Shown piece by piece: positions 9,196 to 21,780 of a stretch of DNA of 64,000 nt. This DNA comes from Oryzias latipes (Eukaryota; Chordata; Actinopteri; Beloniformes; Adrianichthyidae): contig NC_019880.2 of the NCBI RefSeq assembly GCF_002234675.1, positions 13,195,756 through 13,259,755 on the forward strand. The letters run 5' to 3'. Each line of letters opens with the position of its first letter. Positions within the stretch are counted from its first letter, which is position 1. The translations under genes were made by a program, and so were the position numbers. The notes under the pieces are model-generated. The model did not search any database, had not been told where the DNA came from, and saw nothing but the letters and a program-made list of their open reading frames with translations.

Positions 9196-10139
9196 CCTCC
9201 AGCCTACAAACCAGACACTCCATTGTATATTTGAAGTTTCATTTTTCGCTTAAATATTTTTTGCTCTCTGCTTTCTTTACCAATTAAATGATTGTTCCAT
9301 CTGCCAAAAATACTACTTAATTGGGCTAAACTTACAGTAATTATTTAGGGACTCAAGGTTATTTTAAAATTGTCCCGAGACTTTTTTTAACAAGCATCTT
9401 GGTCATTTGATGGTGACTCTGTCCTCTATCAAACTACAACAACTAGTATTGGAAAGCAGAATATTTTATATGAGATATGAATGAATCAGGCTTTAAGTCT
9501 GACACCCTGCTTTTAGAGTCTGTTCTCATGAAATTTGATTTTTTCTTTCTAAAAAGATAATAAAAAATTGCTTAAATGTTTCACTTTTTAAACAGTGCTT
9601 TATTTTTCCATGCATGTACCCAACCGTGTATTTATGCTACTACTTTTCACATTTTCTTGAATATTAAGCTGACGAGTATTCAGTTGCAATTGTGCTAACG
9701 TAAAATTATCAATTCATATAAACTGCAGGTACTTTTTATTAAAGGATTTGGCTTTGATTTACAAATCTGCATGATACTCAAGCATTGTTGTGTTATTTCG
9801 TCATTCTAGATGATATGATTTACAACGAAAGCACAGATACAAACTTATAATATAGAATATTTACAGGAACTGACAGCATCTATGTCACTTTGGGAAGGAT
9901 TTGTAGCTTTGTATATTGTGTTACATGAAAACAAGAATGTGATACAATTCAATGTAAAATAAAGGCTCAACTTGGTACAATAAGAACACAGGTAATCAAA
10001 ATCATTCAAAAATACACATCAAAAAAGAAAAATATCTGCAACAGATTACACTTTTTCATTTCCATAAGAGTAGCATACGGGATGTTTTTCAGCTTTTTTG
10101 TTGTATGAATAATGTGAGGTCTGTCTTTTGCATGCAACT

Positions 10140-13100
10140 TTAGCTTCGCTTCTTTTCACACAGCCATTCTCTTTGGGATTCACATCTTGCATCAAACCAT
10201 GACTTTAAACCTTTGTCTGTAGCCATAATACCAACGCAGTGCTCAGCAGATCTATAATTGTTTGGCTCCCCTCCCATCCAAAACCTAAAGAAAAGTTGAA
10301 GAGAAATGCTTTTATAATTTGATTAAAAACTATTATTTCTAAAGCAATTGAGTAACCTATAAAAGGAAAAAGATTTTCTGACAAATCCAAGTTTATTCTT
10401 CTTCAGCAGATAAAACATTTGAAACGGTTAGTTCAAAAGGGGCCCAAGTCCACAATTTTTCAAAAAAGAGATATTATACAGTGGTGGACAAAATTGTTGG
10501 TACCCCTCAGTTAAAGAAAGAAAGTCCACGATGCTCACTGAAATGACTTGAAACTTTTAAAAGTAACAATAAATTAAAATTTAATAAAAATTAAATAATC
10601 AAAATCAGCCATTACTTTTGAGTTGTAGATTAACAGAATAATTTTAAAAAACAAACTAATGAAATTGGGCTGGACAAAAATGATGGTACCTCCATAAAAG
10701 ACTGAGAAATAATTGCCCAGAGGGTCATGGTGAACTCAGGTATGTCCTTTAATTGACTTCACAGCTGTTTTCAAACCCTTAATCAGTCAGTCTGCCTACT
10801 TAAAGGGAGTCAAATAGTCACGTTGCTGTTTGGTGAAAAGGTGTGTACCACACTGAACATGGACAACAGAAAGCGAAGGAGAGAATGTCCCAGGACATTA
10901 GAAACAAAATTGTAGACAAACATGGTAAAGGTAAAGGCTATAAAACCATCTCTAAGCAGCTTGAAGTTCCTGTGACGACAGTGACCCATATTATTCAGAA
11001 GTTTAAGACCCACGGGACAGTAGCCAACCTCCCTGGACGTGGCCGGAAGAGGAAAATTGATGCCAAATTGAGGAGACGGATAGTTGGAACTGTATGCAAG
11101 GAGCCCAGAACAACCTCCAAAGACATTAAAGGTGAACGCGTAGATCAAGGTACATCAGTGTCAGATTGCACCATTCGTCCTTGTTTGAGCCAGAGTGGAC
11201 TTCATGGGAGATGACCAAGGAGGACACCACTGTTGAAAGGAAATGATAAAAAAGCCAGACTGGAGTTCGCTAAAATGCATGTTGACAAGCCACAAAGCTT
11301 CTGGGAAAATGTCTTTTGGACAGATGAGACAAAACTGGGGCTTTTTGTGTTTTTGTGTGTTCATAGACTCAAAAATTAAGCATACAACGAAAAGAACACT
11401 GTCCCTACTGTGAAACATGGAGGAGACTCAGTTCTGTTTTGGGGCTGCTTTGCTGCATCTGGCACAGGGTGTCTTGAAGTTGTGCAAGGTAAAATGAAAT
11501 CTCCAGATTATCAAGGCATTCTGGATAGAAATGTGCTGCCTAGTGTCAGAATGCTTAGTCTCAGTCGCAGGTCATGGGTCTTCCAACAGGACAACCATCC
11601 AAAACACACACAGCCAAAAACATCCAAGAATGGCTAAGAGAAAAGTGGCCTTCTATGAGCCCAGATCTGAATCCCATTGAACATCTGTGGAAGGCGCTGA
11701 AACATGCCATTTGGAGAAGACACTCGTCAAACCTGAGACATCTGGAGCAGTTTGCTCATGAGGAGTGGGCCAAAATACCCGTGGACAGGTGCAGAAGGCT
11801 CATTGACAAATACAGAAACCGTTTAATTGCAGTGATTGCCTCAAAAGGTTGTGCAACAAAATATTAAGGGCACCATGATTTTGTCCAGCCCTATTTCATT
11901 AGTTTGTTTTTTAAATAATTCTGTTAATCAACAACTCAAAAGTAACGGCTGATTTTGATTATTTAGTTTTCAATAAATTTTAATTTATTGTTACTTTTGA
12001 AAGTTTCAAGTCATTTCAGTGAGCGTTGTGGACTTTCTTTCTTTAACTGAAGGGTACCAACCATTTTGTCCACCACTGTATGTTCTATGGTCTTCAAGGG
12101 AAAAGCTATCTGATTATGTGCATAAAAGTCCCAAGTCTGTTGTACTGTATTGACTATGCTTGACATTTAAAATGCATTAAGTGCAAAATTCCTGGACTTA
12201 GGCCTCTCTTGCATGGGTTTAGCTTTATCCCATTGATGGCAGCACTAGTTATCCAATATGGCAGCGACCCTGTTTAATTCAAGAACACCCAAGTCCAGAG
12301 ACTTTAGTTTGCAAGTCCTCTGAAATTATAAAAGTGAGGTGCTTCATATTATAGCATTTGTAAGATATGATCTGGTGCTAAATCTGGGTAAAGTATTAAT
12401 CATTTGGTGTAGCCTCCGTTTAAGCTATGCAATTAAAATCATTTCCTGGAAAAACAAACCTCTTGGACTTGGGCCCCTTTTGTACTAACCGATTCATTTA
12501 GGCGTGAAGTTTTGTAATACTCACCATTCATTAAACATTGTTTCTTTACAGGTTTAAAATATAAACCAACCCTCTTTACTGTTCTTACCCAGTGTAGTTC
12601 AGAGTCATGTTGTTGATCCATATCCAAGTGCCTTCTCTCTGATGATCTGTGAGGCCAATCCACACTCCTCCAATTCCCCACAGATATGTTCCCCATTTCA
12701 CTTTGGGTAAGTGCTCAAAAACCAACATCTGTAGAATCACAAAGCAAAATGTCTCATGTTTTGGGTGTCATCGTGAGCATTAATTGTGTTTATGAACAAG
12801 TCCCTTTATTCGAATATTTCCAAAAATAGGGTCATTTATTAATCTTGTAAATTTTGGTACTTTTTTTGCACTTAACCTCATTTTCCTGAATAATACGAAG
12901 TTCTAAAAGTTACACATTCACTGATAATGTCTGGATTGGTTCACTGTAACTCACTCTATTATGGTGCAGACCAGTCATCTGTTTGCCGCCTTCAGCCTTC
13001 TCAAAATGCAGCTGTTCGAATGGAGACCAGCTGAAGAAGAAAATCTACATCAGCCCTGAACTCTAGCTCTTCACTGGCTTCCTGTTTCAGGATTTGAGAT

Positions 13101-21379: not shown

Positions 21380-21709
21380 GCTCCATTCTGGTGAATCCAC
21401 TTGTATAGGGGCATGGTTGCTCCGCACCAACGGCCCTGCCCACAGTCTTCTTTCCTTCTATTCCATATCAGACACTGTTGTGTTTCTCACATACCAGACA
21501 TGATTCAGCGGATGCACTTCCGCCGTCGTGAGAGTCGTCGTTGCCCACAGCTCAGAAGCGAATTTCTAATGAACTACTGCCGCTATGCAGAAATTATGTC
21601 CCAGAAAAAGACAGGTTATTTGATTTTGAAAACAGCCTAATCACAGTTAGAAAGACCACTGGGGAACGCTGTTACAGTAAATCCAAATATGACCAGAGTG
21701 GATCTTTAA
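21380..21709 (-). repeat. Dispersed repeat family A, copy 2
   Basis: Duplicate of copy 1 at 14975-15490, but shorter by about 180 bp after CACTTGTATAG. Its minus-strand start is TTAAAGATCCACTCTG near 21709. Confidence 0.7.
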
Positions 21710-21780
21710 TGTGGCTTTAGGAGGTCACAATGCAGTGCTTTTGTTTGGCACACATGTGGGTGAAGGAATCAGAGGTGACC

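Follow-up and report, generated by a model that had tools for sequence, protein, structure and literature searches.

Two neighbouring lectin genes of the medaka, Oryzias latipes, are nearly identical over their 5' halves and clearly diverged over their 3' halves, and this uneven identity is probably the product of interlocus gene conversion of the 5' half after one tandem duplication. The genes lie in a window of 64,000 nucleotides, the whole stretch of DNA that was analysed, on contig 22 of a genome of 734,051,031 bases in 25 contigs. Conversion is the best explanation because the change in identity cuts one intron, introns and exons shift together, the flanks are collinear, and no third copy of the tract was found in the genome. 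The preliminary description of this DNA had read the mosaic divergence as gene conversion leaving homogenised stalks and separately evolving binding sites: the conversion reading stands on the intron step and the collinearity, while the division into stalks and binding sites is not supported.

Organization of the lectin genes and their cluster

Unit A (9203-15551) and unit B (17487-21770) each consist of one six-exon lectin gene on the minus strand together with its 3' and 5' flanks. The units are direct copies that align end to end in both MAFFT and affine pairwise alignments, in agreement with the whole-length alignment claimed earlier. In gene A, coding exon 1 (14590-14602; its start codon was picked by reading, and a further upstream exon is possible) is followed by exon 2 (14382-14501), encoding a short tail and a hydrophobic stretch, exon 3 (13907-14167), encoding the neck, exon 4 (13660-13823), the first C-type lectin domain (CTLD) exon, exon 5 (12589-12728), also CTLD, and exon 6 (10140-10284), which carries the EPN...WFD motifs, the CTLD end and the stop codon. 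The corresponding exons 1 to 6 of gene B lie at 20997-21009, 20789-20908, 20313-20573, 20066-20229, 18815-18954 and 18437-18581. Both reading frames are whole, with 280 residues each and 10 residue differences between them. The Pfam Lectin_C family matches A and B (E 4.8e-18 and 4.1e-18, respectively), and among solved structures A has its best match in CD209 antigen-like protein B (3zhg, E 8.5e-16). By reading alone, the translation was divided into an N-terminal tail, one hydrophobic stretch, a neck and a C-terminal CTLD. The EPN motif is present and identical in A and B, and at the position of the WND motif, located by aligning A with CD209-like protein B, both genes encode WFD. The asparagine of WND is a calcium ligand in CTLD sugar binding; since it is absent from both proteins, canonical sugar binding by A and B is uncertain.

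A search of the 734-Mb genome placed the high-identity tract at two loci, A and B, and returned neither a third copy of the tract nor an outgroup by which the changes could be polarised. In a protein search of the genome, the next best match after the A and B exons was 34% identical over its length. Exon matches of four older lectin relatives lie to the left of A and B on the same strand: two fall inside the window, at about 0.8-1.5 and 7.1-8.4 kb, and the other two outside it. At an E threshold of 1e-6, blastn detected no similarity between the remaining cluster members and A or B except in short repeats, and no relatives were found among three candidate stretches in viral contigs.

Several observations concern the lectins around this pair. 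In lectin D (792-947), the two sugar-site motifs are QPN and WNV, and these motifs therefore vary along the cluster. In the neighbouring lectin C, the exon encoding the end of the CTLD (7067-7252) seems to carry a serine/tyrosine-rich repeated insertion after an EPD that occupies the position of EPN in A and B; taken by itself, this match is weak (E 2.4 with A and 8.0 with B). A cluster member about 9.1-9.7 kb to the left of the window keeps both EPN and WND, and is the only one among six cluster members whose exon matches show both. A further group of CTLD matches is located on contig 11 (9.63-9.67 Mb); two of these have identical scores and are possibly a recent duplicate pair. Elsewhere in the window, an extended open reading frame (37268-39745) whose product has HATPase and DNA mismatch repair domains presumably represents MLH3.

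Distribution of differences between the two units

Differences were counted on the affine pairwise alignment, in which the three large length differences were treated as gaps and kept outside the counts. From left to right, the diverged 3' part of A (9203-12904), holding exons 5 and 6, shows 118 non-coding differences in 1335 positions (8.8%); the high-identity tract (12905-14873 in A, with an uncertain right end; 19337-21280 in B) shows 26/1361 (1.9%) at non-coding and 3/558 at coding positions; and the right flank (A 14874-15551) is intermediate, with 24/474 (5.1%) outside a 193-bp block. The respective Jukes-Cantor distances are 0.094, 0.019 and 0.052. With break points that were picked by eye from these data, the left part differs from the tract at p = 1.6e-16 and the right flank at p = 0.0008; divergence in the right flank is also below that of the left part (p = 0.009). 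The tract covers exons 1-4, introns 1-3, most of intron 4 and 271 bp upstream of the ATG, and codes for the tail, the hydrophobic stretch, the neck and the first CTLD exon.

The uneven similarity that had been proposed by eye was borne out by these counts, which rule out a flat identity profile once the inserts are removed. The individual estimates were also accurate: about 88 per cent near 9.72-9.84 kb corresponds to 9 differences in 100 aligned bases at A 9711-9810 and 12 at A 9811-9910, about 97 per cent over exon 5 to 136 identical positions of 140, and above 99 per cent over exons 1-4 to 555 of 558 coding positions, and the one difference claimed near 14.4-14.58 kb is the single difference within 14400-14580, at A 14576.

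The left step in identity is strong. When two rates are fitted to the affine alignment at its non-coding columns, the best low interval is A 12892-15447 (42/1744 differences vs 126/1426 outside), with a gain of 33.0 log-likelihood units; shuffling gave at most 10.5 when single columns were permuted (150 shuffles) and 15.0 with blocks of 30 columns (300 shuffles), none of which reached the fit. In unmasked MAFFT columns, the best interval is A 13576-14873 with a gain of 25.6, reached by 0/200 column and 4/200 block shuffles, and noise is added to this fit by a misaligned 60-bp stretch. The unmasked MAFFT alignment was rejected as a sole basis, given the misalignment of an AT-rich stretch (about A 13532-13600), where a single window of 100 columns contains 20 mismatches. 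At its longest, unbroken identity extends over 279 MAFFT columns, as compared with at most 207 in 2000 shuffles. Segmentation by BIC accepts a single step, at A 12891/12892.

This step sits inside intron 4, where differences change from 14/174 to 16/705 (Fisher p = 0.0006, with the break chosen from the same data); constraint on the exons is therefore not its cause. The coding exons track the same step, with 3/558 differences in exons 1-4 vs 11/285 in exons 5-6 (p = 0.0007). An alternative in which the 5' half is under regional constraint or has a low mutation rate, with no exchange between the copies, is consistent with a density of indels that is not lower in the tract, and promoters and 5' introns can be constrained. 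Such a cause would hardly produce a change so abrupt within one intron, and the similar transition:transversion counts on the two sides, 68:61 on the left and 14:15 in the tract with coding sites included, argue weakly against it as well; we regard it as quite unlikely.

The left step is bracketed by A 12891, the last differing position on its left, and A 12942, where substitutions resume on its right; a 208-bp length difference lies between the two. In B coordinates this range spans about 258 bases. The coincidence of the step with the 208-bp heterology is partly built in, since 208 of these possible positions are missing from A.

The right border of the tract

The right step at A 14874 is probably real, and its strength varies with the alignment and the test. 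All six alignment and masking variants split A 12905-15551 at this position. In 2000 shuffles of each kind, the affine alignment gave 53 column and 92 block shuffles that reached the split when its non-coding columns were used, and 0 and 8 when all columns were used. With unmasked MAFFT, the numbers were 21 and 1139 for non-coding and 0 and 540 for all columns; after masking at two misaligned stretches they fell to 0 and 19, and to 0 and 4, respectively. The BIC segmentation does not accept this split, and the best two-rate interval extends to A 15447, beyond the supposed border.

These last two observations bear on a rival history, in which unequal crossing-over would have produced three copies with a hybrid in the middle, and a later deletion would have left A and the hybrid as B. 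One half of the pair would then be young and the other old, for which the one step accepted by BIC would be enough, and the low interval running nearly to the unit end at A 15447 would be expected. However, identity drops again to the right of A 14874, which demands a second switch: events number 12/739 at A 13577-14873 vs 27/474 to the right (p = 0.00016, with the break chosen from the data). The two genomic places found for the tract also speak against a former third copy. A crossover hybrid is accordingly an unlikely origin of the pattern. Interlocus gene conversion of the non-crossover type is expected to keep both copies and both flanks, as is seen here.

Length differences, inserted blocks and the spacer

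Small indels in the tract would be expected to be homogenised under conversion, but this was not seen: the density is not lower than on the left (11/1360 columns in the tract vs 10/1335, the latter being nine small indels and one 2079-bp block), and the ratio of indels to substitutions differs between the two parts (p = 0.0012). All tract indels are 21 bp or less, with five of the eleven being single-base and four being 12, 13, 19 and 21 bp long; ten of the eleven fall in intron 4, and several lie, by eye, in short direct repeats or AT-rich runs. Their retention requires either patchy copying or fast gain of indels in the AT-rich intron 4. This undiminished density weakens the case for a single clean event, and the indels, along with the lower divergence of the right flank than of the left part, count against a simple form of conversion.

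The same differences bear on the possibility of an artefact of assembly or polishing, by which reads of one copy had corrected the other. The published Hd-rR assembly, if this is the one used here, underwent polishing by Quiver and subsequently by Pilon with Illumina reads (PMC5705604), which could have such an effect. Nevertheless, the tract retains 26 non-coding and three coding substitutions as well as the indels of 12, 13, 19 and 21 bp, and an artefact of this kind is most improbable. An unmerged haplotype is also unlikely, since the Hd-rR assembly is described there as long-read and the strain as inbred (PMC5705604).

Three large blocks distinguish the units. The 208-bp block (19129-19336) lies in intron 4 of B, is absent from A and coincides with the identity step. 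It has AAAA at both ends by eye, and one place was found for it in a genome search that skips very common words, on which ground a transposable element was rejected. The AAAA ends and the single place favour a deletion in A, which is most likely what the length difference reflects.

The 2079-bp block (A 10416-12494) occupies intron 5 of A, is absent from B and consists of nested transposons. An element that we take to be Tc1-like, with inverted ends at about 10476-10690 and 11869-12081, is nested within another element, whose inverted ends measure 33 bp and whose borders, judged by eye, each read CATTT. The Tc1-like inverted ends differ at 14/213 positions (6.6%; Jukes-Cantor 0.069). If these ends were identical at insertion, the element entered after the duplication and well before the last conversion; by the comparison of 6.6% with the 1.9% of the tract, the insertion probably preceded the last conversion.

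The 193-bp block (14997-15189) is found in A and not in B. Most of it is spanned by A 14956-15144, which is 74% like window positions 48623-48811, and part of the right flank resembles a repeat present elsewhere in the lectin cluster. Within the spacer between the units (15552-17486), positions 2-65 and 643-1935 are similar to a dispersed repeat (40 of 1070 first-look candidates in the genome were scored); on the outer flanks, a search for relics of the spacer repeat gave no match better than E 0.025.

Divergence of the sugar-site exons

Exon 6 shows 7/145 differences and exon 5 shows 4/140. Together these exons (11/285) are less diverged than the surrounding non-coding sequence (118/1335; Fisher p = 0.004), including the 3' flank (90/936, 9.6%), so that a divergence peak on the sugar-site exon is absent: exons 5-6 lie below both their own introns and the 3' flank. 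Eight of the 11 differences change an amino acid. With dN of 0.036, dS of 0.057 and a dN/dS of about 0.6, there is no sign of positive selection in exons 5-6. The EPN motif and the aspartate of WFD are untouched; the replacements K260Q, two residues before the tryptophan of WFD, and R266S, four residues after it, may alter binding, as judged from their position in the sequence. The idea that the binding sites evolve separately is not supported by these counts, the shared EPN and WFD motifs, or the dN and dS values.

An adaptive version of the preferred reading, with which it overlaps, supposes that whole units are converted and that selection removes conversions of the sugar-site exons. The tract does stop before exon 5, and the 8/11 replacement differences point the same way. 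A divergence peak would be expected on the selected exon, as in opsin exon 5 (PMC3924837), whereas exons 5-6 are lower than their surroundings (11/285 vs 118/1335) and dN/dS is about 0.6. We consider this version very unlikely, and found no evidence that conversion happened for the sake of the sugar-binding end. The 3' half is merely the part outside the tract, beside the 208-bp heterology and the 2.1-kb insertion. A more speculative scenario, in which recurrent conversion of the 5' half keeps a common tail and stalk while the intron 5 transposon and the intron 4 deletion shield the tips and let them specialise, appears doubtful.

Proposed history of the pair

We propose that one tandem duplication gave rise to the young pair A and B, that the copies then diverged by drift, and that non-crossover interlocus gene conversion later replaced the 5' half of one of them with sequence of the other, at a time corresponding to about one fifth of the present distance in the left part. 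Conversion as the process, and its right border, are both inferred. One patchy event or a few overlapping ones may have been involved, and copying during break repair would be the mechanism. The converted tract would be about 2 kb long. It would end, on the 3' side, in the part of intron 4 that includes the 208-bp heterology and, on the 5' side, upstream of coding exon 1, most likely somewhere from A 14721 to 14874. The heterologies may have acted as tract borders; transposon insertions and large indels are named as ending pairing and conversion between duplicates (PMC3924837). No clear rise in GC3 is seen in exons 1-4 (0.495 vs 0.457 in A and 0.500 vs 0.489 in B).

Discussion

Domain-wise conversion is already known from protocadherins, CEACAM32 and Siglec-11/16, and the phenomenon in A and B is ordinary in this respect. 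The fugu Pcdh2 clustered protocadherins (PMC1852091) are likewise tandem fish cell-surface receptor genes with one region homogenised and another diverged; however, they include many paralogs with repeated conversion of the 3' region of the variable exons and raised GC3, whereas the medaka genes form one pair with one tract across introns and no clear GC3 rise. Siglec-11 and Siglec-16 (PMC5701461) also form a lectin-receptor pair with conversion over part of the gene; there the ligand-binding exon region is homogenised, in contrast to the tail, hydrophobic stretch and neck in A and B. In cattle CEACAM1/CEACAM32 (PMC7042247), the spared exon differs strongly and the introns are alike, unlike A and B, in which the spared exons are less diverged than their surroundings. 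The red/green opsin pair (PMC3924837) shares the uneven divergence of tandem duplicates under conversion, and differs in its divergence peak on the selected exon 5. Among the matches listed in a search of titles and the beginnings of abstracts in the open-licence literature, no paper on gene conversion in fish C-type lectins was found.

The single-nucleotide difference between the Hd-rR and HNI strains is given as 2.455% (PMC5705604). The tract, at 1.9%, would therefore be about as old as that split, and its history could be tested there; the three published long-read medaka strain assemblies (PMC5705604) offer a test of the order in which duplication, transposon insertion and conversion took place. 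Units A and B illustrate, on a small scale, how unevenly a tandem lectin-receptor pair can diverge, here with large heterologies near the tract border. A single tree of such lectin genes would mix two histories.
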